Origin: a virus
IMG/VR virus record: IMGVR_UViG_3300030419_004482
Span: 1-25,289 of that record
Reading direction: 5' to 3' (one strand)
DNA length: 25,289 bases
Positions 6,114 through 24,709 of the stretch are shown piece by piece. The notes beneath the pieces are model-generated. The model did not search any database. It saw only the letters and a list, made by a program, of their open reading frames with translations, and was not told the origin of the DNA. Each line of letters opens with the position of its first letter. Within the stretch, counting starts at the first letter, position 1. The position numbers and the translations under genes were made by a program.

Positions 6114-8170
6114 TGACTGCTAGAAATTATGATTTAATTTTAAAGTTTAATTCTAATTCACCTGTACATGTAGGTTCTTTAAGTGCTGGCAATGTTATTA
6201 CTGGAAATAGTTCTGCTGCTTCTGGTACTATTGCCAATATTGATTTAAGTGCTAATACTATTAAAGTAAAATTAAGTAATACTTTAATGAAATTTCGAAA
6301 AGACGAATATTTTCATGCTAATGCAGCTACTACAAGAGTTTTAAATGTAGATTTTAAAGTCACAAGTTTAACACATAATGTAACATCAGTTACAATTGAT
6401 AATTTAAATTATGCAGAATTAAATCAAAATCTTACAGCAGCAATGGCGGCTATGAGAACTGATGGTAATACTGTTGGCGGTTCAGAAGTTACTACAGCTA
6501 ATGCTCTTATTTTACCGATACCTGCTAATAATAAAAATGAAATTACTGTATTATTTAATAATACTCATATTCATTCTGATGAATATATATGGTCTGGTGA
6601 TTTAGATACTGGCGCTAATCAATTTGCTTCTTTTGGTTCTAGAGTTCAATTAAATTCTCAATCAGTATTTGATATTGAGGGAATGGCATCTAATGCTATT
6701 GTTTTTAAATATTCTAGGTTAACTCAAGACGCTAATTATACAGTTCGTGTTGCTACTGCTAATTTAAAATCAACAGCATTTGAACCTGCTGTATGGGTAA
6801 GTAACGATACTATTGCTAGTGGTAATGTAATTCTTGAGATAGAAAATTCACCTTATATAGCAGAAAAAAATGCATTTACACAGAATCCAATAGTAAGATT
6901 AATTGATATTTATTATCCTGGTGAATGGTATCCTCCAAAAGCAACAGGTAATCCAGGTGGTCAAGGTTCTGGATTAGCATGGCCTCATAATTTTCCTTTT
7001 AGAATAGCAGAAATAAATGGAGATATTATATCAGATATAAACTATAATGTAACTTTTGATGGAGGTACTTATAAACCTTATCCTATAAATATTTCTGCAT
7101 TTGATCAACAATCTGATGGAGAGATTAATGAACTTACTGTAAATATATTTAATTTTGAGAATATTATATCTGCTTTAATAGAAGATCCATTTTTAGCAGG
7201 TAATAATAAAAATAATTCTGCTATGGCTATTGTAAATGGGGAATATGTAAATGGTATTGATCCTAGAACTATAAATATGAATCCTCAAGAAATTAGTGAC
7301 TGGTCTGGTTTTCCTAATTATGAAAGTTCTGGTAAATCAACTGCTAATCTTGCAGCAAATATATTACATAATATAAGATCTTCTGATAATGCTAGATATA
7401 AGGCAAATAGTACAGCTATTGGTACTTATGGCTCAGAAAACGTATCTTGGTCTAGAGACGAAGTTCTTGCAGTAGATAGAGCAGGTTTATCTAATTGGGA
7501 TGAAAAGAAAATAGATAGTCGTGATTTACTAGGAGCTGTAGTAACAATTAAATCTACATTTGCTAATTTTCTTGATGTTTGGCCTGAATACTCTGTTATT
7601 AAAAGTAGTTTTTCTAATACAATAGAAATGTATACTACTTCTCCTTATCGTGTAGGTGATAACGTAAAAAGTTCTAAAGGAGATACAGAAGCAACAATTC
7701 AAGCAATAGAAGAAAATAGATTTTTATTTTTAGATCGTGAACTAGAAACAGGTACTACTCGTGGTGATGCTGTATACATTGTAAATACAGATGCTGATCC
7801 AGAAGCATATTTAGAAGATGTATTTAAAATTGATTCACTAGATAGTTTAAATGATACTCTTGCTACTTTTACTTTAACTTCTTGGTTGCAATATTTTAAA
7901 TATGTTTTACCTAAAAGAAAATTTTACAAAAATACTTGTCAATGGGAATATAAAGGTGAAGAATGTCAGTACCCAGGACCGGGAGGCGGTAATATACCTG
8001 GTACAAGCCAAACTGCTCCAACAACAGGTTTTGCAGCAGATAATTCTGAAGTAACTGCTGCTAGCGGACTTGATGTTTGTGGTAAGAGTTTACAATCATG
8101 TTCGTTAAGATATAATGAGGTACATTTTGGAGGATTTCCTGCAACTGGTAGAACAATTCCGAGGCAATAA
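6113..8170 (+). CDS. gpL-like tail-tip protein with four-Cys iron-sulfur motif
   Basis: 685 residues. The C-terminus carries the signature of lambda gpL-type minor tail proteins: C609 and C618 (NTCQWEYKGEECQYPG), then C656 and C663 (VCGKSLQSC), then a HFGGFP ending. Lambda gpL homologues are known to coordinate an iron-sulfur cluster through such cysteines, so a cluster is likely here too. The central region around residues 270-345 (YPGEWYP, FRIAEINGDI, YPINISAF) fits the gpL/DUF2163-like hub fold. At 685 residues it is much longer than lambda gpL (about 230): the first about 270 residues are an extra beta-rich region, and a GDxV-rich beta insertion sits near 505-565. AAGAGG at 6097-6102 plus a TAATG overlap define the start. 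The next gene, a radical SAM protein, is coupled to it by another TAATG. Confidence 0.85.
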   Translation: MTARNYDLILKFNSNSPVHVGSLSAGNVITGNSSAASGTIANIDLSANTIKVKLSNTLMKFRKDEYFHANAATTRVLNVDFKVTSLTHNVTSVTIDNLNYAELNQNLTAAMAAMRTDGNTVGGSEVTTANALILPIPANNKNEITVLFNNTHIHSDEYIWSGDLDTGANQFASFGSRVQLNSQSVFDIEGMASNAIVFKYSRLTQDANYTVRVATANLKSTAFEPAVWVSNDTIASGNVILEIENSPYIAEKNAFTQNPIVRLIDIYYPGEWYPPKATGNPGGQGSGLAWPHNFPFRIAEINGDIISDINYNVTFDGGTYKPYPINISAFDQQSDGEINELTVNIFNFENIISALIEDPFLAGNNKNNSAMAIVNGEYVNGIDPRTINMNPQEISDWSGFPNYESSGKSTANLAANILHNIRSSDNARYKANSTAIGTYGSENVSWSRDEVLAVDRAGLSNWDEKKIDSRDLLGAVVTIKSTFANFLDVWPEYSVIKSSFSNTIEMYTTSPYRVGDNVKSSKGDTEATIQAIEENRFLFLDRELETGTTRGDAVYIVNTDADPEAYLEDVFKIDSLDSLNDTLATFTLTSWLQYFKYVLPKRKFYKNTCQWEYKGEECQYPGPGGGNIPGTSQTAPTTGFAADNSEVTAASGLDVCGKSLQSCSLRYNEVHFGGFPATGRTIPRQ

Positions 8171-9381
8171 TGGTTAAAGGATGCATACTTCCCTGGATTC
8201 ATTTATTTGGGGATATTAGAGGTGATTATAGACTATGTTGTCATATACCTGCTAATGATCATGATAGATCTGATGTATTAGCTACTCATAAAGATCCTAT
8301 TGCCTCAATTTGGAATAATGATTATTATAAGAAAACCAGATTACAGTTTTTAGATAGTAAAATACCTTCTCCCTGTCAGAAATTTTGTTATGATGTAGAA
8401 AAAATGGGAGGAGAATCTAACCGGCAACAAGTAAATAAACGATTTAGTAAGTTTTCTGTATTACAAAAATATACTAGATCAGATGGAAGTTTATCTTCTA
8501 ATCCTATATATCTAGATTTTAGATTTAATAATAAGTGTAACTTTAAATGTAGAATCTGTGGGCCTTATTCCTCTTCTGCTTGGTTTAAAGATGCAGATAA
8601 AATATCTGTATTTAAAAACGCTCCTAAAGAACTTTCTACTTATTATTCTAATAATGATGAATTTTGGGATTATTTATATACGATAAAAGATAGTATAAAA
8701 TATTTTTATTTTGCTGGTGGTGAACCGCTTACCATGGATAGTCATTATAAGCTATTACAATGGTTAATTGATAATGATAAGACAGATGTTGAACTTACCT
8801 ATAATACAAATTTGAGTACGTTAAAATATAAAAATTATAATGTTTTTAAGATGTGGGATAGATTTGAAAAAATCATACTCTGGCCTAGTATAGATGGTTA
8901 TAAGAAACATTGTGAATATGGTAGGACTAATTTTAATTGGGATATATTTGAGAGAAATCTAAATATTACTAAAATGTATGTTTCTACTGTTAGTTGTACT
9001 ATTTCATTATATAGTGCATTAACAAGTGTAGAATTAATATTATATTTAAAATCAAAAGGTATAGGTACTTTTTTAAGTGTATTAGACTTTCCAGAACATC
9101 TTGATTGTAGATTATTACCGAAAGAAATTAAAGATAAGATAGAAAGAAAATTTTTATTGTTAAAGAAAAAATTATCTGTAGGAGGTAATTCTAGATTATT
9201 TCTTTCTGAGGAAGAAGTTGATAATATTGATAGAACAGTAGCTTATTTAAAAAATGATATAGAAAATAAAGATACTCTATTAAAACGTTTTAAAAAATAT
9301 AATGAACAAGTAGATAAATTAAATAATACATCATTTGTAGAAGTATATCCGGAATTAAAAGAATGGTACGAGACAATATAA
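8170..9381 (+). CDS. Radical SAM protein with N-terminal twitch domain
   Basis: 403 residues. The core motif C123-x3-C127-x2-C130 (CNFKCRIC) would bind the [4Fe-4S] cluster that cleaves S-adenosylmethionine, and G183-G184-E185-P186 is the SAM-binding GGEP motif. Before the core, residues 1-80 look like a half-SPASM (twitch) auxiliary-cluster domain: C5 in CILPWIHL, C23-C24, then C69 and C73 in SPCQKFC. This N-terminal twitch order is that of the family named twitch domain-containing radical SAM protein. Members occur in marine phages, but I know of no established substrate. The gene sits inside the lambda-like L-K-I-J tip cassette, starts in a TAATG overlap with the gpL-like gene (GAGG at 8161-8164), and overlaps the next gene by 19 bases. 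Modification of a tail protein is the simplest inference; host-directed chemistry is the alternative. Confidence 0.88.
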   Translation: MVKGCILPWIHLFGDIRGDYRLCCHIPANDHDRSDVLATHKDPIASIWNNDYYKKTRLQFLDSKIPSPCQKFCYDVEKMGGESNRQQVNKRFSKFSVLQKYTRSDGSLSSNPIYLDFRFNNKCNFKCRICGPYSSSAWFKDADKISVFKNAPKELSTYYSNNDEFWDYLYTIKDSIKYFYFAGGEPLTMDSHYKLLQWLIDNDKTDVELTYNTNLSTLKYKNYNVFKMWDRFEKIILWPSIDGYKKHCEYGRTNFNWDIFERNLNITKMYVSTVSCTISLYSALTSVELILYLKSKGIGTFLSVLDFPEHLDCRLLPKEIKDKIERKFLLLKKKLSVGGNSRLFLSEEEVDNIDRTVAYLKNDIENKDTLLKRFKKYNEQVDKLNNTSFVEVYPELKEWYETI

Positions 9382-9773
9382 GTAAATACTTAGGATATTA
9401 TCATAACTATTTAGAAATTAATTGTATAACTATTATTAATGATTTCTATAAAAAAGAATTAAATATAGATGATATAGAAAAAATTATACCATCTGATATT
9501 AAAAATAGAAATTGGATGAAGAAAATTAGCTTAGAGCAAATTGATGAATGGGCATTAACATATGGTAAAAAAGTTTCCTTGACAGAAGCACGAGATTTTG
9601 ATGTAATGGTATTTAAATCAGAACGATTTCAAAGACCAATACATTTTGGTATGTTTTTAAAACCATGTCATATGTTACATCTTGAAGAGGGGAGTACATC
9701 AAGATATGAATCAATTAGTAACGAGTGGGTTAAGTCACTCTACTCAATCTACAGACACAAATCCTTGGTATAG
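9363..9773 (+). CDS. NlpC/P60-like cysteine peptidase, first of a tandem pair
   Basis: 136 residues. Fold-level features match the phage NlpC/P60 family: the N-terminal SKYLGYYHNYLEINC segment with probable nucleophile C21, DFDVMVFK before the catalytic His in PIHFGMF (H94), then MLHLEEG and a C-terminal LYSIYRH ending. The usual D-C pair is N20-C21 here and the rest is divergent, so activity is likely but not certain. In lambda this domain is the C-terminal half of gpK, thought to cut peptidoglycan or mature the tip. Here it is a separate gene, starting inside the end of the radical SAM gene with only a weak ribosome site, and overlapped at its end by a second NlpC/P60-like gene. Confidence 0.68.
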   Translation: MVRDNISKYLGYYHNYLEINCITIINDFYKKELNIDDIEKIIPSDIKNRNWMKKISLEQIDEWALTYGKKVSLTEARDFDVMVFKSERFQRPIHFGMFLKPCHMLHLEEGSTSRYESISNEWVKSLYSIYRHKSLV

Positions 9774-10188
9774 TAAATATTTAGGTCTTCCCTATATTCA
9801 TTTAGGTGATAATCCTAAAACAGGAATTGATTGTTTTAATTTATGTCGTTTAATTTATAAAGAACAATTAAATATAGACATACCTTATGATACGGCAGAC
9901 TGGTGCAATATTGTTGATGAGGATTGGTATTCTAAAACACATGACCGTCCTTTTGAACGAGGAAGTACTGCTGCTTTTGGATGGGAAAAAGTTAAAACTC
10001 CTGAAAAATTTAATGTAATAACGATGTCTATTGGTGTTACTAATGTGACAAATCATTGTGCTTTGTATATTGGTAATAATAGAATGATACAAACAATGAT
10101 TGATAAAAAAAGTTGGATAGCGCCTTACGGCAGCTATTATAAAACATATACTATGGGAATATTTAAATGGATTGGTATGCCGAATTAA
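9706..10188 (+). CDS. NlpC/P60-like cysteine peptidase, second of a tandem pair
   Basis: 160 residues from the ATG at 9706. A TTG at 9682 would add 8 residues. I prefer 9706 because a purine-rich AGAGGGGAG (9686-9694) lies 11 bases before it. The core is recognisable: YLGLPYIHLGDN, then GIDC with probable nucleophile C43, LCRLIYKEQLNI, catalytic His H117 in NHCALYIG, and a C-terminal YTMGIFKWIG. This is the standard phage tail NlpC/P60 pattern and closer to consensus than the preceding gene. Expected role: cleavage of cell-wall peptide stems or tip processing, as the C-terminal part of lambda gpK. The first 68 bases overlap the preceding gene in another frame, and the last 22 overlap the JAMM gene, so the three peptidase genes are tightly coupled. 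Confidence 0.8.
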   Translation: MNQLVTSGLSHSTQSTDTNPWYSKYLGLPYIHLGDNPKTGIDCFNLCRLIYKEQLNIDIPYDTADWCNIVDEDWYSKTHDRPFERGSTAAFGWEKVKTPEKFNVITMSIGVTNVTNHCALYIGNNRMIQTMIDKKSWIAPYGSYYKTYTMGIFKWIGMPN

Positions 10189-10532
10189 AAGAAGATATGA
10201 ATAATCATGCTTTAAAAGATTATCCAAGAGAGGCTTGTGGCGTAATATTAGATGATTTTATTTATAAACCATGTGATAATTTAAGTACGGAACCTACACT
10301 TAATTTTATTTTAGATCCTGCTGCTTTTATTAAATATGATAATATTTGGGGAATTTTTCATTCACATCCAGGAAGTGATAAACCAATTCCAAGCCAAGAT
10401 GATAAAATCAGTGCTGCATTTCAACAGTATAAATTTTTAGTTGGCTTCAATAATCAATTTTATATATACTGGATGGATAGTAAATTAAACGCGCTTAAAT
10501 TTGATAAGCTAAGAGAGGATCACTTTATTTAA
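10167..10532 (+). CDS. JAMM/Mov34-family metallopeptidase (gpK N-domain equivalent)
   Basis: 121 residues, a single JAMM domain. The zinc-site motif is clear: E22 in PREACGVI, then H65-S-H67-P followed by S76 and D78/D79 (FHSHPGSDKPIPSQDD). The spacing from H67 to the S-x2-D element is one residue longer than the canonical motif if D79 is used, while D78 keeps the usual H-x10-D distance. In lambda gpK this domain is fused to an NlpC/P60 domain; here it is free-standing and encoded after two NlpC/P60 genes, so domain order is reversed as well as split. The ATG at 10167 lies inside the preceding gene; a later ATG at 10197 would remove part of the first helix and is less likely. Role by family and context: processing peptidase for tail-tip assembly or cell-wall digestion. 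Confidence 0.85.
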   Translation: MDWYAELKEDMNNHALKDYPREACGVILDDFIYKPCDNLSTEPTLNFILDPAAFIKYDNIWGIFHSHPGSDKPIPSQDDKISAAFQQYKFLVGFNNQFYIYWMDSKLNALKFDKLREDHFI

Positions 10533-11330
10533 ATGTATGCTACTATAAAAATTAGTCCTACTTTTAAAGATTATTTTGATGAATTAGAATATCAGGTAAC
10601 TGTAAGTTCCTATTATGATATTGAATTTTATCTACAAAGTATGCATACTCGTTTTGCAAATTATATGAGACAAATTAAACTCGGACTATCTCAGGAAAGC
10701 TTTGCTTATTTAGATAAAGATTTAAAAGTTGTTGAACCTCAATCTTTTCCTATGAAAAAAATAAAAAATGGAGATACTATTTACATAGCACCTGTAGTAT
10801 GTGGTGGAGGCGGTAAAAAAGGGTTTTTATTTGCTGCTATTGCTGTAATGGCAATTGTTGCTACTGGTCCTGCAGGAATGGGAATGTGGGGTGTAGGTGG
10901 TTTTGATGCGGCAGGTATGATTAGTTATGGAGGAGCATACGGACCTATGGGTAGTATATTTGGCGGTGGAGCAGGTGTAGGTGGTGGTTTGTTTTCAGGT
11001 ATACCTAGTTTTATGAAAGGTATGCTTGGTAATTTAGCTCTTTCTGCTGTTGGTGCTTTATTTACTTCAAAACCTAAACAACAGCAGATGGAAGTTACTA
11101 AAGATTCAGGAACTCGATCAGAAAATAATATGTTTGGATCTCTCACAAATTCAACTACTTCTGGAACTCCTATAGGTATTACTTATGGAGAAATGAGAGT
11201 TGCAGGTCAATTTTTAAGTGGATATATTTTAAGTACTGAGCATGGGCAGAATGATGCTCCAAGTATAGAATCTATTTTTGTTGCAGATGCTACACCATTA
11301 GCTACTCCAACACCTACAGATGATAGTTAA
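10533..11330 (+). CDS. gpI-like tail-tip assembly protein
   Basis: 265 residues, placed between the gpK-like peptidases and the gpJ-like gene exactly as lambda gpI. Residues 1-90 look like the beta-grasp (ubiquitin-like) N-domain, ending in KKIKNGDTIYIAPVV. Residues 92-185 are a Gly-rich hydrophobic region with a possible membrane-like stretch (FLFAAIAVMAIVATG). Residues about 190-240 match the TipI C-terminal pattern (NNMFGSLTNSTTSGTPIG, then YGEMRVAGQFLSGYI). Family knowledge: gpI is needed to assemble the tip, is absent from the mature lambda virion, and has been proposed to be cut by gpK-type peptidases. The start codon follows the JAMM stop without a gap. Confidence 0.82.
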   Translation: MYATIKISPTFKDYFDELEYQVTVSSYYDIEFYLQSMHTRFANYMRQIKLGLSQESFAYLDKDLKVVEPQSFPMKKIKNGDTIYIAPVVCGGGGKKGFLFAAIAVMAIVATGPAGMGMWGVGGFDAAGMISYGGAYGPMGSIFGGGAGVGGGLFSGIPSFMKGMLGNLALSAVGALFTSKPKQQQMEVTKDSGTRSENNMFGSLTNSTTSGTPIGITYGEMRVAGQFLSGYILSTEHGQNDAPSIESIFVADATPLATPTPTDDS

Positions 11331-11339
11331 AGGATTATT

Positions 11340-14300
11340 ATGACAGCTATTAAACAATATACAGTTTATGATGGTGAAAAAGTTCCTCATATTATGGGTT
11401 CTAAAGGTTGTTTCGTTGCTGGTACTCAAATTACTATGGCAGATGGTAATAAAAAACCAATTGAAAATATAGAATTAGGCGACTTAGTTTTAGCTTTTGA
11501 TAAAAAAGGTAATCTCGGCCCTGCCAGTGTAAATAGATTATATCATCATGAAGATGATGAATTTTTAACTATTAAACATTGGGTAGGAGAATTTACTGTT
11601 ACGCCTAATCACTGGTTACTTCTTGAAGATGGCTTATTTCTAGAGGCAGGAAAATTTACTGAAGAAGATCAGGTAGTTACCCATGATGGTAAATTATCAC
11701 CAATTGAGTCAATTGAATATGGCGGAAAAGGTGATAGTTATAATTTTACCGTTTCACAACAACATACTTATATAGCTAATGATATTCGTGTTCATAATAA
11801 AGGTGGTGGTGGCGGAAAAGGCGGTGGTGGCGGTGGTGGGGCCGTTGAAGATCCAAATAATAAATTTTCTACTGATATTCTATTTTTAACCACAGGTCTT
11901 GGTGAAGGCCCTGTATATAGAATTAATCCTAATGGGCCACAAGATATTGAAGTGCAAGATGGTAATATTGATGATATGATCAATCTTGATGGAGATGGTT
12001 CAGAAAATACAAATTTATTTAAAACTTTAAGCAATCCAGGAACAGTTACACAACCAGCTTTACGCGTATTCGGGCAAGAAATTGCAACTCCTCAAAGTTT
12101 TACATCTGTTGTAAAACTTAAAAAAGGAAATGTTGGAGGTATTCCTGAATCTAAAGTAGAATTACAATCTACTAGTGGAAAAGCATGGGATGCGCTTAGA
12201 TTTAATTTTGAACTAAGAGGCTTAATTAATCAAGATGCTAGAGGAAATATTCACGGACATGAAGTAGAGATTTCTATTGAGTTATTTAATTCAACAGGTG
12301 CTGAATCTTTAATGGATCCAGTTATTAGAAAAATTACTGGGAAAACAAATACTATGTTTAAATTTGACGTATCTGTATTGATTCCTGACGATAAAAAAGA
12401 TGCTGATGGTTATAGATTTACCATAAAGAAAACATCTGATGATAGTGACTCCTCTAAAATTCATGATAATATTGCTATTAAAGGCTGGACTGAAATTGAG
12501 TTTACTAAACAAGCCTATCCTAGAACAGCACATATTGGATATGCTGTTAAAGCGCATAATGAACATACGGCAGGTGTGCCTAATTTTACATCTCTTGTAA
12601 AAGGACTATTAGTAAAAGTTCCAAGTAATTATAATCAACCTATTTTAGAAACCGGCGAAATTAGTTGGAGAGAATTAGAAGTAGTAGACGATATAGATAC
12701 AAATGATGCTAATTGTTATCAACGTAATGGCTATAGTTTACAGTTTACCGGACCAGATACAAGATTAACTGCCGATACTCCCGCAATATACGTTGGTACT
12801 TGGGATGGAACTTTTGTATATTCTTGGACGCAGAATCCGGTATGGATAGTATATGATTTATTAACGAATAGTACATATGGTTTAGGTATGCCTGAAGATG
12901 TCATTGATAAATTTAAATTTTATCAGGTTGCTATGTATTGTGATGCTTGTAATGCTACGACAGGAAAATTTGAAGGTGTTACTGCTTTAGCTGATGGTTC
13001 ATTTAGGCATAAACCAAGAGGTAAATTTACATCAGTTAGAGAAAATCAATTTGGAGTTTCAGAATCTACTAAAATTGTTGAAAGAAGATTTATTTGTGAT
13101 GTAACGATACATGATCAAGGACAGGCTATGGATGTTCTAAATCAAATTACTTCCATTTTTAGAGGTGCTTTAGTTTATAATATGGGCAAGATTACTTTAG
13201 CAGTAGATATGCCAAATGAATTACCTGTAGCTATGTTTAATGAAACTAATATAAAAGAAGGATCATTTCAAATATCAGGAATTAAAGAAAGTGAAATATT
13301 AACTGCTGCTGATGTAAGTTATATTGAGCCTACTAACCATTATAAACGTGAGACCGTTAGAGTAGATACTGTTGATAGAAATGATGGTAGAGATAAGAGT
13401 GCATTAGAAAATTTGGCAACATTAGATTTATTAGGCGTAACACGAAGAAGTCAAGCAATGCGGTATGCTCATTATCAAATTGCAGCATCTAGATATTTAA
13501 GACGTAGAGTTCAATTTACAACTAGTATTGAAGCAATTAATATAGCTCCTGGCGATGTTATTTCAGTTTCTCAAAAAATGAATGGGTTAGGTTTTGGTTA
13601 TGGAGGAAGAATCCGAGCTAATTCTGCTGTTGGGGCTGGAGAAAAATGGGCAGAATTAGAATACTTTACAGAACCTACACTTGATGCTACTTTTTTCACA
13701 GATAAAACTTATAATCTTGCTATGCGTATATACAGAGCAGATTCAGATCAAGCTGATTTATATTTAATTAGTGATAGTGCATATAATTTATCTACTACTA
13801 CTAAAGATATTACTGTTACTAATCCTGTTACAGCTAAAGGGGAAGTTGCTCGAGTGATATCAGATAATTCTGTAAATGTTAATATTGAAACAGGAACTAT
13901 ATATAATACATACGCGGTATCTTATACTACTAATGCAGTAACTACTGATATAACTGCGAATGTACTTCCTGGAACTACTAATACTTTAGTCTTTTCTGCT
14001 GATTTTGAAGTACCTGTAAATACAAAATTAACATTTTCGGGTGAAACTCCTACTATAACTTCAAATGCAAATACTAATTTTGGATTTGATTTTGCTAATG
14101 TATCAGTTACCCATTATTTTAATACTACTACAAAAGCATTTACAGCTCTTGGTGGTTGGAGTCCTAGCAGTAATAATGATGTTACATCATTTCCTAAAAA
14201 GGGTGATTTATGGATGCTTGGAGAGATGAAAAATACAGGTGATGTATATACTAATAAAGCAGGTAAATTATTTAAGGTTACAGATATAACTAGAACAGAT

Positions 14301-17300
14301 GAGCATGAAATACAAGTTGGTGCAATGGAATATGTTTCAAATGTTTATGTAGATTCTGATACTTTTATAGATTATACTCCAACTGCTTATACAGATATTA
14401 CTTCTCCTCTTGTACCTCCTCCAACTCCTGAATTTGTTTTGAAACCATTACCTCGTAGAACCGCAGATGGTAGTGTTGTTGTAGATGTTTTAGTTGATGT
14501 TTTTACTGAGAGACAACAATACCACATAAATATGTCTACAGAATATTTTGTTTCCTTACCTGATGTTGCACAAAGAGTAATTAATGTAGAATCTGTACCT
14601 GGTACACATCCAGCAACATTTAAACTTTCTAATACCGCAGGTTTAGGAGATTCTTTAGTTCCAGCAATATTGACAGGTAAAAGCGGTTTTTCAGGAACTA
14701 CTGGTGAACTTAGGCTTTTGTGCACTGATGTTAGAGAATCTGACGCAGAAACAGGTCTAGGAAGTGATTCTCATATTGAAATGCAATTAGAAGGATTAAA
14801 TGTTGCTTTTGATTATAATTGGCATAAACATTTTCTTGATGTAAATGATGCAGGTATTTTTCCATTAAAAGGTGATGACTTTATATCATTTCCAACTAAC
14901 GAAAAAGCTAATACTGGTACTGCTTATGGTTTTGTTGGGCATAATCCTAGAACTGAACAATATTCAGCACAAGTTTTATCCCATAATGCAAATGGTAAAA
15001 TGGCAACAGCAGGTTACTATTGTAAACAAGATAATGTAATAATTAGAAATTCAAGCTCTGATGATGGAACTAAACTATTTTCTGCAATTCCAGCTCCTCC
15101 TTTTTATGTATCTTTTAATCAATTATTAGTTGCAGATAATTATGCTAATAATAATTTTTATGTAACTGGAACAGAAATTACTTATACTAAAAGTAATACT
15201 ATCACTCTTCAAGCACCAGTTGCAGACTCTAGTGCTGGTCTTACTTCTCATATACAACCTTTAGAAATTGTTCCTAGACACAAAGGTTTTATAAAAGCAT
15301 TTGTAGATGGTACACAGATAAGTAGCGATGCTTTTAATTTACATACAAGTAGTACTCCTGCTAATGTAGAATTTTTAGATTTATCGGCATCACATTCACA
15401 AATTCGTGTTGTTATAGACCATTATACTGTTCCAACTATTGAAGTTGGCGATAATGTTCAATTTTTATCAGGAAATGTTTTTTCTGTGCTTGCAACAAGT
15501 TACGATAATACCCAGGCATTTGCAAGTAGTTCTAATCTTTTCTTATATGATCCTGCTTTAACTGCAAATAGTATATATACTATCACATTAAGAGGAGATC
15601 CACCAAAAGCTAATGTTGGTGGAACTACTTTTGTTAATATATCTCCCGATATTACAGGTTCTGTTGGTAATGTAAATATTACTGCAAATACTTTTACTTT
15701 AGATTATGATAAATATACTTATCCAGGAAGTCATAATTTAGCAAATAATGGAGTATACACTCTTGGATTAGGAAGTCCTTATGATCAAGTATTTCTTACA
15801 CAAGATAGAGTACTTCCAAGTGTACGTATTGGTCCTATATCTGTAAAAGCTCGTAATAAAAATACACAAGGTAGAACTAGTCCTTTTAATGTTAAAACAA
15901 TAATAGTTGAAGATATTCCAATAAGCAAAGTAACAGGTATTGAAATATCTGAAGAATTATTTATTGATACTAATAAAGGTGTTTCAATAAGAGCTACTGT
16001 AGCTTTTAATCATCTTGAAAATGAAGAAGTAACTGATTATGAAGTATCTTATAAATTAACAGGTGAGGCCTCTGAATTATCTTCCTTTAATACTGTTAAA
16101 GTATCTGCTGCTGGTATAGATACGGATGGTAAAATTCGTTTCTCTATTACTAATGTTAATCGTGGAAGTGCTGCTGGAAAAAATACTTTAGTTGTAAGAA
16201 TTACTCCATTAAATAAAGAAATAAGAGGTATAACGGCTGAGACTAGTCATGTACTTCAAGGTAAAACTGCTCCTCCTGCTAATGTTAGTACTTTTAGTGT
16301 TGGACAGAGTACTGACCAGATAACTATAACTTGGACATTACCTACTCCTAGAGAACTTGATTTACAGGATATTGTTGTTAAAAGAATGTCAGGTTCTCAA
16401 ACAATTACTGAATCAAATTGGATATTAGCAAGCTCTTTAGTTACTGTTTCTGATAATATTAACAGAAAATCTGTTCCTATTGATAGTTATGGAGAGTACA
16501 CATATTTCGTTAAAACTCGTGATACAAGTGGAAACTTTTCTTCATCTGTACTTGGATATACTCTTACTACTTCTAGACAAGTAACTGATGTTGTTGTAGC
16601 TGCTTTTAGTGAAGATAGCCCTGGAACTAATTATGCTGGTATTACTAATACAAATCAAGGTGAAACTAATTTTCCATCATTTACCAAAAGTCGGACAGGA
16701 GGTAATGTGTATGCAGGAGGAGGTTCAGAGTTTGGTGGTTTAGTAAGTTTATCTGCTGATAATGCAGGTGGTACTAGTGATGGATTTAGTGCAGCATCTT
16801 CAACAACAGACTTAGATGCAGCAACTGACGCATATTATGTAACTAAATTTAGAGATATGGGATCTAGTGATTTTTATCATATTGAATCAGATCATCAGTA
16901 TACACAGGTTCCAAAATTAAATTATGCTTCTTTTAAAACATCAATATTTGAAGATACAACAGAAGCTCTTTCAAGTCCTTATACAACTGCTATGTATATT
17001 AAAGCAACAGGTATAGGTATTACTCTTAGAGATACTTATGATACTACATATGACCCAAATAATACAACATTAGTAGATTATGGTGATTATACAAATGCAA
17101 ATGTAACTAACAGTGCAAATATATTAGCTGTATGGAATGAAGGACAGTATAGTGGAAATGTAATAACTGTAAAGAGCATTACAAAAGCAAGTCCCGCTGT
17201 AATTACTACACACTATCTTTCTAATGCAGAAGATAATGGAAATACACATTGTATAAGTAACACTAGTGCGCCAGGAGCACGTTTTATTATACATGATGCA

Positions 17301-18185
17301 GAAGGTATGACACAAATTAATGATAAAGAGTTGTATGCAAAACGTTTAACTAATATAACTTTAGCTATTTATACAGATAAAAATTTAACTACTGCGTTAG
17401 ATACATCAAGTGGATATGATACATACACAGGAGGAGCTGTTGTTGATCAAGGTGATTATGCTAATTCTAATTCCTATTCATATATAGCAGAAGTAAAGAC
17501 TGATGATGTAATTATGCTTGGTAATGCTTTTCATGCTAATGGTATAGCTGTAGGTTCTAATCTTCTTGCAAATGTTGGTACTGTTACAGGTAGTAAATTT
17601 CATATAGTTGACTTAAAGAGTTATGATGATGTTGAGGCTGATGCAACTAGTTACGAAGGTACCCCTGGTGCAGTTACTACTACTACAGAAATTCGTACTT
17701 CTTCAGCTGCTAATATTTGGTTACAAAATACTGCAACCGGTACTTCTGGAAGTAATGGTAATGTGAACTATCTTGCATTACATGATAATGCAACATCTAA
17801 TGGTTGGTCATCTTTTGAGCCGGGTACAAGACAATTCAGATGGATACAGATGAAATTAAATGTAATTAATAGTCGTCCTGATGAAAATGACTTTACATTA
17901 GATAAATTTAATTATACAATAAGTAGACCAAAACAAATATTTGAAACAACAATAGATTATACTACAGTACCTGCAGTAGTGGATTGGTCAGCTAAGAATT
18001 ATAGATCAACACCTTATACTACTATAAATGTTGTGGATGTGACAACTTCAACTACTAATGTTTTCTCATGGGTATGGAATTCACTAAGTGCTACTCAGGG
18101 TACTTTAAGATTATTTAAACCAGATGGCAGTGCTGCCCCATCAGGTGATTATGTTTCGATACAAATTAGGGCAGAAGGAGCTTAA
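11340..18185 (+). CDS. gpJ-like central tail-tip/host-specificity protein with N-terminal Hint domain
   Basis: 2281 residues, about twice lambda gpJ (1132). Order: a 23-residue leader; a Hint autoprocessing domain at 24-153; a Lys/Gly linker at 154-168 (KGGGGGKGGGGG), which resembles the N-terminal Gly-rich start of ordinary gpJ proteins; the gpJ core from about 170 to 790, with recognisable blocks such as NPVWIVYDLLTNSTYGLG (from residue 499) and FRGALVYNMGKITLAVD; long beta-rich regions; fibronectin III-like domains near 1530-1645 and 1645-1750 (start TAPPANVSTF); and a Ser/Thr-rich C-terminal third that probably reaches the receptor. In lambda the C-terminus of gpJ recognises the receptor. 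AAAGGA (11329-11334) lies 5 bases before the ATG. The gene is followed after 2 bases by the collar fibre. Confidence 0.9.
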   Translation: MTAIKQYTVYDGEKVPHIMGSKGCFVAGTQITMADGNKKPIENIELGDLVLAFDKKGNLGPASVNRLYHHEDDEFLTIKHWVGEFTVTPNHWLLLEDGLFLEAGKFTEEDQVVTHDGKLSPIESIEYGGKGDSYNFTVSQQHTYIANDIRVHNKGGGGGKGGGGGGGAVEDPNNKFSTDILFLTTGLGEGPVYRINPNGPQDIEVQDGNIDDMINLDGDGSENTNLFKTLSNPGTVTQPALRVFGQEIATPQSFTSVVKLKKGNVGGIPESKVELQSTSGKAWDALRFNFELRGLINQDARGNIHGHEVEISIELFNSTGAESLMDPVIRKITGKTNTMFKFDVSVLIPDDKKDADGYRFTIKKTSDDSDSSKIHDNIAIKGWTEIEFTKQAYPRTAHIGYAVKAHNEHTAGVPNFTSLVKGLLVKVPSNYNQPILETGEISWRELEVVDDIDTNDANCYQRNGYSLQFTGPDTRLTADTPAIYVGTWDGTFVYSWTQNPVWIVYDLLTNSTYGLGMPEDVIDKFKFYQVAMYCDACNATTGKFEGVTALADGSFRHKPRGKFTSVRENQFGVSESTKIVERRFICDVTIHDQGQAMDVLNQITSIFRGALVYNMGKITLAVDMPNELPVAMFNETNIKEGSFQISGIKESEILTAADVSYIEPTNHYKRETVRVDTVDRNDGRDKSALENLATLDLLGVTRRSQAMRYAHYQIAASRYLRRRVQFTTSIEAINIAPGDVISVSQKMNGLGFGYGGRIRANSAVGAGEKWAELEYFTEPTLDATFFTDKTYNLAMRIYRADSDQADLYLISDSAYNLSTTTKDITVTNPVTAKGEVARVISDNSVNVNIETGTIYNTYAVSYTTNAVTTDITANVLPGTTNTLVFSADFEVPVNTKLTFSGETPTITSNANTNFGFDFANVSVTHYFNTTTKAFTALGGWSPSSNNDVTSFPKKGDLWMLGEMKNTGDVYTNKAGKLFKVTDITRTDEHEIQVGAMEYVSNVYVDSDTFIDYTPTAYTDITSPLVPPPTPEFVLKPLPRRTADGSVVVDVLVDVFTERQQYHINMSTEYFVSLPDVAQRVINVESVPGTHPATFKLSNTAGLGDSLVPAILTGKSGFSGTTGELRLLCTDVRESDAETGLGSDSHIEMQLEGLNVAFDYNWHKHFLDVNDAGIFPLKGDDFISFPTNEKANTGTAYGFVGHNPRTEQYSAQVLSHNANGKMATAGYYCKQDNVIIRNSSSDDGTKLFSAIPAPPFYVSFNQLLVADNYANNNFYVTGTEITYTKSNTITLQAPVADSSAGLTSHIQPLEIVPRHKGFIKAFVDGTQISSDAFNLHTSSTPANVEFLDLSASHSQIRVVIDHYTVPTIEVGDNVQFLSGNVFSVLATSYDNTQAFASSSNLFLYDPALTANSIYTITLRGDPPKANVGGTTFVNISPDITGSVGNVNITANTFTLDYDKYTYPGSHNLANNGVYTLGLGSPYDQVFLTQDRVLPSVRIGPISVKARNKNTQGRTSPFNVKTIIVEDIPISKVTGIEISEELFIDTNKGVSIRATVAFNHLENEEVTDYEVSYKLTGEASELSSFNTVKVSAAGIDTDGKIRFSITNVNRGSAAGKNTLVVRITPLNKEIRGITAETSHVLQGKTAPPANVSTFSVGQSTDQITITWTLPTPRELDLQDIVVKRMSGSQTITESNWILASSLVTVSDNINRKSVPIDSYGEYTYFVKTRDTSGNFSSSVLGYTLTTSRQVTDVVVAAFSEDSPGTNYAGITNTNQGETNFPSFTKSRTGGNVYAGGGSEFGGLVSLSADNAGGTSDGFSAASSTTDLDAATDAYYVTKFRDMGSSDFYHIESDHQYTQVPKLNYASFKTSIFEDTTEALSSPYTTAMYIKATGIGITLRDTYDTTYDPNNTTLVDYGDYTNANVTNSANILAVWNEGQYSGNVITVKSITKASPAVITTHYLSNAEDNGNTHCISNTSAPGARFIIHDAEGMTQINDKELYAKRLTNITLAIYTDKNLTTALDTSSGYDTYTGGAVVDQGDYANSNSYSYIAEVKTDDVIMLGNAFHANGIAVGSNLLANVGTVTGSKFHIVDLKSYDDVEADATSYEGTPGAVTTTTEIRTSSAANIWLQNTATGTSGSNGNVNYLALHDNATSNGWSSFEPGTRQFRWIQMKLNVINSRPDENDFTLDKFNYTISRPKQIFETTIDYTTVPAVVDWSAKNYRSTPYTTINVVDVTTSTTNVFSWVWNSLSATQGTLRLFKPDGSAAPSGDYVSIQIRAEGA
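11409..11798 (+). other. Hint (intein/hedgehog-type) autoprocessing domain inside the gpJ-like protein
   Basis: Residues 24-153 of the gpJ-like protein, about 130 residues, so mini-intein size with no room for a homing endonuclease. It starts at C24 (CFVAGTQITMADG), a standard Hint block A with the catalytic first Cys. Block B has T88-P-N-H91 (the TxxH motif), and the end is block F/G: YNFTV, HTYIANDIRVH152-N153. The residue after N153 is K154, not Cys, Ser or Thr. Ordinary splicing needs one of those, so cleavage without ligation is the expected chemistry, as reported for bacterial intein-like (BIL) domains. The flanks are GSKG before and KGGGGGKG after, as if placed in an existing Lys/Gly linker. 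Catalytic residues look intact, so I expect activity, but this is not shown by sequence alone. Confidence 0.88.
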
Positions 18186-19997: not shown

Positions 19998-22900
19998 ATG
20001 GCACTTACACGTATTACTCAAACTGTAGTTGGAACTGGCGCTATTGCTACTGATGGTTTAGCCAATAGTAGTATATCAGAAAGGACAATTGCTACAGGAG
20101 CTATAACTGCGGATAAATTAGCAGCTAATGTTATAACTGGAGGGCCTATAGCTGCTAATATAAATATTGTTCAAAATAACGTAACAGCTCTTACAGCAAA
20201 TGTAGATGTAGTTCAAGATAACGTAGCTGCAATAACAGACGCAACAACTGATCTTAATATAGGTTCAGGTAAATATTTCTTTGATAAAAGTATAACTTCT
20301 TTAGGTATAAATAATACTCAGCCTATTGCTGGTACTGTTAGTTTAGGTACTCCAGCAAACGTAATTTTAAATTATCAAGCAGGACTTGGTGGTAATGTTT
20401 ATATTGGTGTACCAAATACACTTAGTCCTTATAAATTAGATGTTCATGGTACAGCTAATACCGGAACTTTTAGAGCAACTCAGATTGGTATTGGAGCAGC
20501 ACCCTCTCGTCCTCTTACTATTGAAACGGGCGAAAATGAGGTAATCAGACTTATTAATACACATAATGGTGGCGACGTTAAAATTGAATATAGAAATAGT
20601 TTTGGAACAGATACAAATTGGTTTGGCGGATTAGAAGAGTCTGATGGCTCATTTAGAATTAATTTTAAAGAAGCAGATATAAGTTCAGCTGAAGATACAT
20701 ATTTAGCAATTAAGAAAACTATGCAGATGGGCGTTGGAACAGCATCTCCTGATGCTAATCTTCATGTTGTAGGCACTGGCCATATTACTGGACAAGTTAA
20801 TGTAGATGATGATTTAGTTATTACAGGAAATGTAGGACTTGCAGGAAATACAGCACCAGCCCTTAATACAATTAGCTTAGGTGCTCCAGCTAATGTCGTA
20901 ATTAGAGCTGTTAGTGATAAAAGCGGTAATGTAATTATTGGTGATCCTACTGCTACGTCGCCTTATAGTTTAGATGTACGTGGTGCAGCTAATGTAGGTG
21001 CGTTAACTGCAACGTCCTTTTCTCTTTCAGCAATGACAGTTAGTGATGGTGGAACAATAGGTTCTACTTCTACCACTGACGCAATAACAATTTCTGCTGC
21101 TGGTATAGTTACTTTTAAAGACGATATTATAATAAAAGATGGAGGCACAATTGGTGTAACATCTAAAGTTGATGCAGTAACATTAGCTTCTGATGGAGCT
21201 ATTACTTTAGTTGATGATTTAGCTGTAACAGGAAATACTGTAGTAACTTTAGGTCTTGCTGTAGCAGAAAATACTGCACCAGCTATTGATACTGCAAGTT
21301 TTGGAAATCCTGCTAATGTTATAGTTAGGGCAGTATCTCAAAAAGGCGGAAACGTTATAATTGGAGATTCTACTGCTACTACATCACATAGTTTAGATGT
21401 ACACGGTACGGCTAATACTGGAGCTTTAACTGCAACTACAATTGTATTATCAGATGATGGTGGAGTACAAGTACCTAATGATGGTAATATAGGATCTGCT
21501 GGTGCTACAGACGCTATGCAAATTGATTCAGCAGGTATTGTTACATTTAAAGACGATATTAAAGTTAAAGACGATGGTACTATAGGTAGTGCTTCAGCTC
21601 CTACAGCTATGACTATTGACTCCTCTGGTATTGTCGCGTTTGTAGACGATATTAAAATTAAAGATGGTGGTACAATAGGTAGTGCAACAACTATAGATGC
21701 AATAACTCTAGCTTCTGATGGTGTAGTTACTTTTAAAGACGACATTAAGATTAAAGATGGTGGAACTATTGGTTCGGCAACTACTCCGGGTGCTGTAACA
21801 ATAGCTTCTGATGGTTTTGTTACTATAGCAGATGATATGACTGTAACTGGTAATTTACAAGTTCATGGTGAAACTATTACTGCTAATACTACTAATATTG
21901 TTGTAAGAGATCAATTTATAGCTTTAGCTAATGGTGGCGCTAAAACTGCTGATACTGGTGTATTTTATACGCGAGGTACAGAAGGTAACGCAGTTATATG
22001 GTATGATGCTTCAGAAAACTCATTTTATATGTCTGAATCAAGAAATGAATATAGTGATACCTCTATTACACCAACAAGTGCCGCTAATCTTAATGTAGGT
22101 CTTTTAGAAGCAACTTCTATTACGTTATCAGGAGATGCAGGAGTTTTAGTTCCCAATGATGGAAATATTGGATCTGCTGGTGCAACAGATGCAATGCAAA
22201 TTGACTCAGCAGGTATAGTAACTTTTAAAGACGATATTAAAGTTAAAGACGATGGAACGATAGGTAGCGCTTCAGCTCCTACAGCTATGACTATTGATTC
22301 AGCAGGTATTGTAGCATTTGTAGACGATATTAAAGTTAAAGACGATGGTACTATAGGTAGCGCTTCAGCTCCTACAGCTATGACTATTGATTCTTCTGGT
22401 ATTGTTGCGTTTGTAGACGATATTAAAGTTAAAGACGATGGAACAATAGGTAGCGCTTCAGCTCCTACAGCTATGACTATTGACTCAGCAGGTATTGTTG
22501 CGTTTGTAGACGATATTAAAGTTAAAGACGATGGAACAATAGGTAGCGCTTCAGCTCCTACAGCTATGACTATTGACTCAGCAGGTATTGTTGCGTTTGT
22601 AGATGATATTAAAATTAAAGACGGTGGTACTATTGGCGTAGCATCTGCTGCTGACGCAATGACGGTTTCAAGTGCTGGTATAGTAACTTTTAAAGACGAT
22701 ATTCTTATTAAAGATGGCGGTACTATTGGTGTAGCATCATCAACTGGTGCTATTACAATTGCCTCAACAGGTATTGTTACATTTGTAGATGATATCGTTG
22801 TTAAAGACGATGGTACTATAGGCAGCGCTTCAGCTCCTACAGCTATGACTATTGATTCTTCTGGTATTGTTGCGTTTGTAGACGATATTAAGATTAAAGA

Positions 22901-23723
22901 TGGTGGAACAATAGGTGTAGCCTCTAAAACTGACGCAGTAACCGTAGCTTCTGATGGTGCTGTTACTTTAGTTGACGATTTAGCTGTTACAGGAAATATT
23001 ACTTCAACATTACAAACAGTAGTTACAACTGGATTAGGAGTTGCTGCTAATACACTCCCCTTAAGTAATAGTATTAGTATTGGTAATCCTGCAAATGTTA
23101 TAATACAAACAGCCTCTGGGTCCGGAAAAAGTATTATTGTTGGTGATCCTACAGGCACAACAACTCATTCTTTAGATATACGCGGTACAGCTAATACTGG
23201 GGCATTAACTAGTACAGCAGTAACAGTAAGTGGATTAACTGCTTCTCGTGTTCTACAAACAGATGGAAGTAAAGGTTTAGAATCATCAGCTGTTACTACT
23301 ACAGAACTTGGATATCTTGATGGGGTTAGTAGTGCAATTCAAACACAATTAGATGCTAAAATAGCTACTACATCTTCTGCATCAAATGATTATGTTACTT
23401 ATACTAGATTAAATGCGAATTTAAATGTGATTCAGGATAATGTAGCATCATTATCAGGGTCAATTCAATTAAATCCTTTTACTAATGCAATTACACAAAC
23501 TGGAACTGCAAATACATTCTTCTTAGGCAAGGCAATGCCTGGTGATGGTTTAGCTAATGTTTTGAGTGTTTCAATAGATGGAATAACTCAAATTAAAGAT
23601 CAACCAGGAACTGCAAACAATGATTTTATAATGAACGCTGTTGCAGCACATGCATCAATTCAATTTACTGCACCTTCTATACCTGCGGGTTCAAGGATTC
23701 AAACTATAATACTACATTCATAA
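19998..23723 (+). CDS. Long repeat-built tail fibre protein
   Basis: 1241 residues. The N-terminal about 90 residues (ISERTIATGAITADKLAANV) are of a type common at the start of marine phage fibres. The shaft is built from two repeat families: fifteen 31-residue units with consensus DDIKVKDDGTIGSA in three arrays, and four 56-residue modules centred on GxPANVI and SLDVxGxANTGAL. Between arrays is a separate block near residues 615-690 (NIVVRDQFIALANGGAKT, then DTGVFYTRGTEGNAVIWYD), a pattern seen in cyanophage-like fibres. The C-terminal region has the widespread ELGYLDGVSSAIQTQLDAK motif, a coiled-coil-like junction and a final beta domain. Expected to form a trimeric beta-structured fibre touching the host. 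AGAAGG (19985-19990) lies 7 bases before the ATG. Confidence 0.85.
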   Translation: MALTRITQTVVGTGAIATDGLANSSISERTIATGAITADKLAANVITGGPIAANINIVQNNVTALTANVDVVQDNVAAITDATTDLNIGSGKYFFDKSITSLGINNTQPIAGTVSLGTPANVILNYQAGLGGNVYIGVPNTLSPYKLDVHGTANTGTFRATQIGIGAAPSRPLTIETGENEVIRLINTHNGGDVKIEYRNSFGTDTNWFGGLEESDGSFRINFKEADISSAEDTYLAIKKTMQMGVGTASPDANLHVVGTGHITGQVNVDDDLVITGNVGLAGNTAPALNTISLGAPANVVIRAVSDKSGNVIIGDPTATSPYSLDVRGAANVGALTATSFSLSAMTVSDGGTIGSTSTTDAITISAAGIVTFKDDIIIKDGGTIGVTSKVDAVTLASDGAITLVDDLAVTGNTVVTLGLAVAENTAPAIDTASFGNPANVIVRAVSQKGGNVIIGDSTATTSHSLDVHGTANTGALTATTIVLSDDGGVQVPNDGNIGSAGATDAMQIDSAGIVTFKDDIKVKDDGTIGSASAPTAMTIDSSGIVAFVDDIKIKDGGTIGSATTIDAITLASDGVVTFKDDIKIKDGGTIGSATTPGAVTIASDGFVTIADDMTVTGNLQVHGETITANTTNIVVRDQFIALANGGAKTADTGVFYTRGTEGNAVIWYDASENSFYMSESRNEYSDTSITPTSAANLNVGLLEATSITLSGDAGVLVPNDGNIGSAGATDAMQIDSAGIVTFKDDIKVKDDGTIGSASAPTAMTIDSAGIVAFVDDIKVKDDGTIGSASAPTAMTIDSSGIVAFVDDIKVKDDGTIGSASAPTAMTIDSAGIVAFVDDIKVKDDGTIGSASAPTAMTIDSAGIVAFVDDIKIKDGGTIGVASAADAMTVSSAGIVTFKDDILIKDGGTIGVASSTGAITIASTGIVTFVDDIVVKDDGTIGSASAPTAMTIDSSGIVAFVDDIKIKDGGTIGVASKTDAVTVASDGAVTLVDDLAVTGNITSTLQTVVTTGLGVAANTLPLSNSISIGNPANVIIQTASGSGKSIIVGDPTGTTTHSLDIRGTANTGALTSTAVTVSGLTASRVLQTDGSKGLESSAVTTTELGYLDGVSSAIQTQLDAKIATTSSASNDYVTYTRLNANLNVIQDNVASLSGSIQLNPFTNAITQTGTANTFFLGKAMPGDGLANVLSVSIDGITQIKDQPGTANNDFIMNAVAAHASIQFTAPSIPAGSRIQTIILHS
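20313..20480 (+). repeat. 56-codon fibre module, copy 1 of 4
   Basis: 168 bases encoding a module that starts NTQPIAG and ends GTFRAT. It aligns without gaps to three others in the same gene at 20847-21014, 21270-21437 and 23049-23216, sharing the N-T start, GxPANV, a GNV/GKS-IxG step, LDVxGxAN and the closing AT/ST. Copy 1 is the most diverged (YIGVPNTLSPYKLDVHG in place of IIGDPTATSPYSLDVRG). Confidence 0.75.
20847..21014 (+). repeat. 56-codon fibre module, copy 2 of 4
   Basis: 168 bases, starts NTAPALNT and ends GALTAT. Close to copy 3 (RAVSxKxGNVIIGDxTAT shared). It lies directly before the first 93-base repeat array. Confidence 0.75.
21024..21209 (+). repeat. 93-base tandem repeat array, 2 units (diverged)
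   Basis: Two in-frame 31-codon units (start VSDGGTIGSTS at its core, then KDDIIIKDGGTIGVTS), followed by VDDLAVTGN, which also follows the third array. Units are diverged from each other at the base level. Confidence 0.7.
21270..21437 (+). repeat. 56-codon fibre module, copy 3 of 4
   Basis: 168 bases, starts NTAPAIDT and ends GALTAT. It lies just before the second 93-base repeat array, the same arrangement as copy 2 with the first array. Confidence 0.75.
21456..21827 (+). repeat. 93-base tandem repeat array, 4 units
   Basis: Four in-frame 31-codon units, unit starts at 21456, 21549, 21642 and 21735. The first two (VPNDGNIGSAGATDAMQ, then VKDDGTIGSASAPTAMTI) recur in the same order at 22134-22319, 678 bases downstream, so a two-unit block was copied between arrays. 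The array ends in ADDMTVTGN. Confidence 0.85.
22134..22970 (+). repeat. 93-base tandem repeat array, 9 units with a near-identical core
   Basis: Nine 31-codon units, exactly 837 bases, unit starts every 93 bases from 22134 to 22878. Units 2-5 (22227-22598) are nearly identical at the DNA level and differ mainly at the Thr codon of DDGTIG and in a Ser-Ala or Ser-Ser pair before GIVAF. Unit 8 (22785-22877) is nearly the same as these but separated from them by two diverged units. The array is followed by VDDLAVTGN. Confidence 0.9.
23049..23216 (+). repeat. 56-codon fibre module, copy 4 of 4
   Basis: 168 bases, starts NTLPLSNS and ends GALTST. It follows the nine-unit array rather than preceding one, and leads into the C-terminal ELGYLDG region. 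Confidence 0.75.
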
Positions 23724-24709
23724 TGAGAAAAATTAGACAACTTACAACAGAACTTACATTTAGGTGTAATGCTAAGTGTCCTGCTTGTCATCGTTTACGA
23801 ATTAAAAAAATTAACTTAAATGATTCTAAATATACTTACACATTAGAATCTTTTAAAAAATTATTTTATCCTGAGTTACTAAATAATTTAGAATGGTTAA
23901 TATTAAATGGTAATTTTGGTGATTCAATAATGAATAAAGAGTTTAGAGAGATAATTTCTTATGTAAAGGAACACGGTACAAGATTAAATATACATACAAA
24001 TGGTGGGATACATGATCATGATTATTGGACTGATGTAGGAAATATTTTAACTAATCGAGATATTTTAAATTTTGATTTAGATGGTTTAGAGGATACTCAT
24101 CATATTTATCGTATAAATACTAAATTTGAAGATGTTTTATCTAATGCAAAATCTGTTATAGCTACTAAAAGACCACAAGTTCATTGGAAGTATATAGTAT
24201 TTAGTTATAATCAACATCAGGTAGAGACTGCTAAACAACTTGCCAAAGATTTAGATTTTCATTCATTTTCAACAGTAAAAACTAATAGAGAATTTAATCC
24301 TCCTAGAACTGGTAAATTTGCGCATACTAAAAATAAAGTTAATAAAGATACCTTAGAAAAACAAATATTATGTGCTTGGGAAAGTTGGGGTAAATGGTAT
24401 GTTTCACCTGAAGGATTAGTTTTTAGATGTTGTTGGACTGGTGGACATTATTATGATAATGATAACTCAAAATTTTATTATCCGCCTGAGTTTACAAAAA
24501 AATTTAATGGATTTTATGTTCCCATCGAAAAAATAATTAGTTATAATTATTGGAACAAATTAAAGTTATACTTACAAGGATATGATAGAAGTTTTTCTTT
24601 ATGTAAAAGTCAGTGTGGAAAATTATTATCTAGTAGAGAAAAAGTAGAAGAAAATCTTAATACAGGCGAAAAAACTATATTTGATGCCTATGATCAAAGA
24701 GGTAATTAA
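23723..24709 (+). CDS. Radical SAM protein with C-terminal SPASM-like cysteines
   Basis: 328 residues. C15-x3-C19-x2-C22 (RCNAKCPAC) right at the N-terminus is the radical SAM cluster motif. The usual GGEP position reads LNGNFGDSI, the GN(F/L)GD variant I recognise from a phage-associated radical SAM group, and it is followed by IHTNGG and FDLDGLEDTHHIYR. The C-terminal part has C217 (LCAWESWGKW), C236-C237 (FRCCW) and C294/C298 (LCKSQCG), suggesting an auxiliary SPASM-type cluster; SPASM enzymes commonly modify peptides. Substrate unknown. The start is a TAATG overlap with the long fibre gene and has no good ribosome site of its own, so translation depends on the fibre gene. It differs from the radical SAM protein at 8170-9381 in architecture, so the two are not recent duplicates. 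Confidence 0.86.
   Translation: MRKIRQLTTELTFRCNAKCPACHRLRIKKINLNDSKYTYTLESFKKLFYPELLNNLEWLILNGNFGDSIMNKEFREIISYVKEHGTRLNIHTNGGIHDHDYWTDVGNILTNRDILNFDLDGLEDTHHIYRINTKFEDVLSNAKSVIATKRPQVHWKYIVFSYNQHQVETAKQLAKDLDFHSFSTVKTNREFNPPRTGKFAHTKNKVNKDTLEKQILCAWESWGKWYVSPEGLVFRCCWTGGHYYDNDNSKFYYPPEFTKKFNGFYVPIEKIISYNYWNKLKLYLQGYDRSFSLCKSQCGKLLSSREKVEENLNTGEKTIFDAYDQRGN

Follow-up and report, generated by a model that had tools for sequence, protein, structure and literature searches.

Inteins are thought to require Cys, Ser or Thr directly behind the domain, and splicing of BIL domains that lack a nucleophile at this +1 position is viewed as a minor side reaction. Type-A BIL domains have no +1 nucleophile, and the route proposed for them involves an N-terminal thioester, cyclization of the C-terminal Asn, and a last step in which the freed amine attacks the thioester (PMC4031507). 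The products are reported to be mostly (PMC4031507) or predominantly (PMC7664689) those of cleavage, and a review states that A-type BILs cannot ligate (PMC7765530). The same review places BILs in variable regions of bacterial proteins that are not conserved (PMC7765530).

The window analysed here is a virus record of 25,289 bases. It encodes a gpJ-type central tail-tip protein with a Hint domain close to its N-terminus, and the features of the locus are:

10533..11330, + strand: gpI-type tail assembly protein (phrog_32), immediately 5' of the gpJ gene
11340..18185, + strand: gpJ-type central tail-tip protein with internal Hint domain, ORF of 2281 aa
11340..11408, + strand: N-terminal leader, residues 1-23, MTAIKQYTVYDGEKVPHIMGSKG, whose last residues are the ancestral G(A/S)KG motif
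11409..11798, + strand: Hint domain, residues 24-153, 130 aa, without homing endonuclease
11409..11411, + strand: C24, N-terminal catalytic Cys, block A
11601..11612, + strand: T88-P-N-H91, block B, TxxH
11793..11798, + strand: H152-N153, block G, predicted site of Asn cyclization
11799..11801, + strand: K154, the +1 residue, matching the Lys in GGKGGG, the motif of the empty site
11799..11846, + strand: Gly-rich linker, KGGGGGKGGGGGGGAV
13116..13592, + strand: Phage-tail_3 hub domain of gpJ

Residues 24-153 of the gpJ-type protein are a minimal Hint domain. The reading frame 11340-18185 contains C24, T88-P89-N90-H91 and H152-N153, followed by K154-GGGGGKGGGGGGG. Pfam scoring of the 193-aa N-terminal piece at curated cut-offs gave PF01079 (Hint) as the top match (36.9 bits, cut-off 29.7), with PF05203 (33.1 bits, cut-off 32.1) and PF07591 PT-HINT (31.2 bits, cut-off 27.7) also above threshold. 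The best PDB sequence match was the Hint-containing protein 8w20 (E = 2.8e-10), and the Clostridium thermocellum BIL domain 2lwy matched over residues 23-153 (E = 2.4e-8). An AlphaFold model built from 34 sequences had a pLDDT of 87-98 over the Hint blocks; its top PDB matches were BIL2 of Tetrahymena BUBL1 (6y75) and 2lwy (rmsd 1.7 Å, 139 columns), followed by mini-inteins. The initial annotation had proposed a complete Hint set (C24, T88-x2-H91, H152-N153) with K154 at +1, and translation, Pfam, PDB and AlphaFold all bear this out; the BIL-type comparison it drew also holds, with 2lwy and 6y75 among the best solved relatives. The interval it gave, 11340-11845, includes the Hint itself at 11409-11798, and the remainder is taken up by the leader and some of the linker. 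Across a 12-row gpJ Hint alignment in which the lowest identity is 51-55%, C24, F25, T88, P89, N90, H91, H152, N153, K154, G155 and G156 are invariant, and one sub-clade has Gln in place of the block F His.

The body of the protein matches phrog_31, central tail fiber J (E = 8e-98), NF049904 lambda_TipJ (E = 4e-36, starting at residue 159), and the Pfam families PF13550 Phage-tail_3 and PF24801. TipJ and Phage-tail_3 hub domains and the gpI-gpJ gene order, by which a gpJ tail-tip protein is recognized, are all present, in agreement with the earlier assignment of the Hint to such a protein (phrog_31, NF049904, PF13550). The operon of gpL, radical SAM, NlpC, JAB, gpI and gpJ genes is common to Hint-bearing and Hint-less relatives. 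Two radical SAM genes were found, one within the tail module (8170-9381) and one after it (23723-24709). The former is of the NF033640 twitch-domain type (E = 1e-103) and lies between the gpL-like and NlpC genes; a tie of this gene to the Hint was ruled out, since the gene also adjoins Hint-less gpJ. The overlapping ORFs 9363-9773 (weak NlpC/P60 match, E = 0.018) and 9682-10188 (clear NlpC/P60 match) are both retained in many relatives and adjoin a separate JAB gene (10167-10532). A CGGGGKKG linker behind the N-terminal part of gpI (10533-11330) fits the processing theme of Ub-like domains and JAB proposed for tail assembly (PMC1779556). Downstream, 19998-23723 encodes a long protein with many near-identical KDDGTIGSASAPTAMTIDSAGIVAFVDDI-type repeats, probably a tail fibre.

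IMG/VR was scanned with the Hint, with the gpJ core, and with alignments of both. Among 74 distinct gpJ cores of the clade the Hint is present in 25 and absent from 49. All 25 Hints end in HN with K as the next residue, and the site they occupy, within a conserved gpJ motif, is the same throughout. The leader is shared by Hint-less relatives, in which it is directly continuous with a G(A/S)KGG-KGGGG motif. Two of them illustrate the empty site: L241, with MAINKQYVHHGNSIVPRIVGSKGG.KGGGSEPVEAPNSLFSTD (junction ...VPRIVGSKGG.KGGGSEP), and L224, with ...YQHQLIPVIGGAKGG.KGGGGGASEDPNSLFSTD (junction ...IPVIGGAKGG.KGGGGGA). The occupied site reads MSVIRHYNSYKGRRVPYIVGAKGG-Hint-KGGGKGGGTTHTPVEAENSLFSTD in L193 (flanks ...VPYIVGAKGG-Hint-KGGGKGGG) and MTAIKQYTVYDGEKVPHIMGSKG-Hint-KGGGGGKGGGGGGGAVEDPNNKFSTD in the window protein (flanks ...VPHIMGSKG-Hint-KGGGGG). 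Removing the Hint in silico from Hint-bearing gpJ restores the G(A/S)KGG-KGGGG motif, and the spliced product of the window protein would have one Gly fewer before the Lys than most Hint-less motifs. Of 33 distinct N-termini without the Hint, 21 have K behind the first Gly run. The G(A/S)KGG motif is also present in the outgroup gpJ of Burkholderia phage Bcep176 (...RISGAKGGGGGGGGGESPDSLHST). As the leader occurs in Hint-less relatives and the motif also in Bcep176, the leader is the N-terminus of gpJ itself, and the Hint an insert in an older motif.

No Hint-bearing gpJ was detected in cultured phages by tblastn of the Hint against 50,697 phage records, the matches being mainly helicase, terminase and polymerase inteins; the nearest gpJ cores in cultured-phage records have <28% identity. 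A search for bacterial Hint homologues in genome_contigs gave 25 weak matches, none of them recognized as gpJ.

A tree was made from 73 gpJ cores; L025 was omitted because its reading frame is broken there. Hint-bearing gpJ form one side of a single branch (SH-aLRT 99), corresponding to one change. When rooted on three cultured-phage gpJ, the Hint clade is nested among Hint-less gpJ, the exact root being less certain because of the long outgroup branches. The nesting and the single change point to one gain of the Hint, with no loss observed in 25 sequences. Hint and core divergence are correlated (r = 0.87, 190 pairs). Hint dN/dS is 0.02-0.29 in close pairs, and among close relatives the Hint is under purifying selection; for distant pairs dN/dS rises to ∼0.7, and such values are unreliable. 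L011 and L032 have gpJ cores that are 94% identical and Hints that are 76% identical, which suggests local recombination or quicker change of the Hint. Taken together, the sequences indicate a single insertion of the Hint into the gpJ of a marine siphophage, followed by vertical inheritance.

It is very unlikely that the Hint is inactive, or a structural domain that remains in the tail tip: the catalytic residues are all invariant over a deep clade, dN/dS is low in close relatives, and a retained domain of 130 aa between leader and hub would presumably have to be accommodated in a crowded trimeric tip. What speaks for inactivity is that processing is so far a prediction and that Lys at +1 would block canonical splicing (PMC4031507). 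Autoprocessing in gpJ is very likely, and it could take place as follows. The Hint would fold, and the acyl group of G23 would move to C24, forming a thioester. N153 would then cyclize, cutting the chain before K154, and the freed K154 amine would attack the thioester (aminolysis), so that the Hint is released. Leader and gpJ would thereby be joined again as ...GSKG-KGGGGG, the N-terminus encoded without interruption in Hint-less relatives, and some molecules would probably end as cleavage products. We infer activity of the Hint, with religation, and not cleavage alone, as the outcome that matters for function. With about equal confidence and doubt, we read the domain as an active, minimal, type-A BIL-like Hint that arose by a single insertion, has been inherited vertically, and splices by aminolysis with rejoining of the leader.

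The initial annotation had instead proposed that Asn cyclization releases the leader. This is a possible outcome, and the second best of those considered, given that Hint-less relatives join the leader directly to the Gly-rich motif. Passage of the leader to a different molecule, which the annotation also raised, may occur, the evidence speaking neither for nor against it. A cut at N153-K154, and perhaps at G23-C24, without rejoining would leave gpJ starting at K154-GGGGG, similar to lambda-type gpJ, and the leader would be lost; in Hint-less relatives the leader could then be a propeptide that is cut in the Gly-rich motif by the JAB or NlpC peptidase of the operon. BIL domains mostly cleave (PMC4031507, PMC7664689), JAB and NlpC genes are present in the operon, JAB has been proposed to process gpI at a Gly (PMC1779556), and lambda-type gpJ begins Gly/Lys-rich and without a leader, as in Fels-1, which starts MGKGGGSSKTPHE. 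Release of the leader alone would, however, discard the part that Hint-less relatives keep, at least in the gene, and the leader is conserved in both groups, with equal constraint at most levels of core divergence. At equal core identity, leader identities in the two groups were 0.30 and 0.30, 0.35 and 0.34, and 0.47 and 0.44; in the closest pairs (core identity 80-97%) they were 0.55 with the Hint versus 0.70 without. The direct joining of the leader in Hint-less gpJ and its similar conservation fit excision with religation better, and we consider cleavage alone a real but somewhat less probable alternative.

The empty-site alleles, and a leader under similar constraint with and without the Hint, make us slightly prefer splicing with rejoining of the leader to cleavage alone. 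Several points count against this reading: the cleavage bias of BILs, the review statement that they do not ligate (PMC7765530), the shortfall of one Gly, the lower leader identity in the closest Hint-bearing pairs, the block F Gln, and dN/dS in distant pairs. Fels-1 also counts against it, as gpJ can evidently function leader-free.

The occurrence of Lys at +1 was followed beyond gpJ by scanning for the pattern of the N-terminal Hint motif, blind to the C-terminus, and the results were pooled with those of the earlier scans. This yielded 98 distinct Hints with an HN end, which fall into 44 clusters at 60% identity. Of the 39 viral clusters, 18 have K at +1, 5 have R and 2 have C/S/T (both C), whereas S/C/T stands at +1 in 46 of 63 and K in 6 of 63 bacterial domains found with the same profile (best loci in ∼600 bacterial genomes and genome_contigs matches). 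For K the Fisher p is 6e-5, a rough figure that sets clusters against distinct domains. Lysine at +1 is not peculiar to the window protein: all 25 gpJ Hints have it, and no other +1 residue is as common in viral Hints of this family. Three viral proteins end in VHNK (L103, L050, L123) and one in VHNKK (L102), where Asn cyclization would free just one or two lysines. In three others Hints are chained through a single K at an HNK/CF junction (L041, L046, L128). K+1 Hints also occur in, among others, L044, a tail protein (phrog_2048), and in proteins carrying a Peptidase_S74 or DUF4815 domain. Two or more tandem Hints were seen in viral proteins L041, L046, L049, L103, L115 and L128. A further group (L067, L090, L112, L126, L070, L111) has C-terminal Hint-like domains behind Gly-rich linkers, in which the N-terminal Cys block is present and the His-Asn end absent.

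For gpJ, the Lys could originate from the target itself, and K+1 may be a pure founder effect, the 25 sequences being one clade; in other viral proteins it looks like part of the domain. The lysine itself might be the acceptor, with the epsilon-amine of K154 or a lysine of a neighbouring subunit attacking the G23 thioester to form an isopeptide bond within or between tail-tip subunits. The dominance of K and R at +1 in viral Hint clusters from unrelated proteins argues for such a role, as do the VHNK ends, in which K appears to belong to the domain. It is nonetheless highly improbable: Lys is already present in many empty-site motifs of gpJ, R is a poor acceptor, and the literature search found no isopeptide precedent. 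Searches of the open literature for BIL or Hint domains in phage structural proteins, and for lysine or isopeptide inteins, found no publications on K+1 phage Hints. A broader conjecture, which we regard as unlikely, is that viral virion Hints with Lys or Arg at +1 are a distinct autoprocessing class in which the lysine joins the chemistry, religating or cross-linking virion proteins through the lysine amine and not through a Cys/Ser/Thr side chain. If such a class exists, the gpJ Hint would be its best test case, as natural empty-site alleles exist.

The locus places a nucleophile-less Hint at one constant position in a core virion protein, with the full catalytic set kept across a deep clade, and its uninterrupted close relatives are a natural control for whether such Hints splice in life. 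Other viral Hint proteins likewise have Lys at +1, and several of these match tail or virion proteins, which points to unrecognized self-processing in marine phage particles.

Compared with lambda gpJ, the hub region is homologous and the gene lies likewise beside gpI and K-type peptidases, but lambda-type gpJ has neither a Hint nor a comparable leader. The Hog/Hint domain of Hedgehog shares the fold and the N-terminal thioester chemistry, and PF01079 is the top Pfam match; the gpJ Hint differs in its C-terminal His-Asn block, which is followed by a flank consisting of the Gly linker and the gpJ hub, and in the absence of the sterol-recognition region. Class 1 inteins and mini-inteins have the same fold and motifs and are likewise clean insertions: the gpJ Hint is an in-frame insert whose removal restores an uninterrupted homologue, and the conserved motif is uninterrupted in Hint-less alleles. 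Unlike them, it has no Cys/Ser/Thr at +1, where K154 is invariant, and no homing endonuclease, and a single gain without losses was seen in 25 sequences. Closest are type-A BILs such as 2lwy, with which it shares the Hint fold with blocks A, B, F and G (Gln replacing the block F His in one sub-clade), Cys1, TxxH, and a C-terminal His-Asn followed by a non-nucleophilic residue (HN-K in all gpJ Hints). In contrast to type-A BILs, its +1 residue is invariably Lys, and it is found not in a variable region of a non-conserved protein but at one conserved site of a conserved virion protein, where it is vertically inherited. The gpJ Hint is thus a real, conserved and probably active domain of a virion protein that combines an intein-like position with what looks like chemistry of the BIL-A type.
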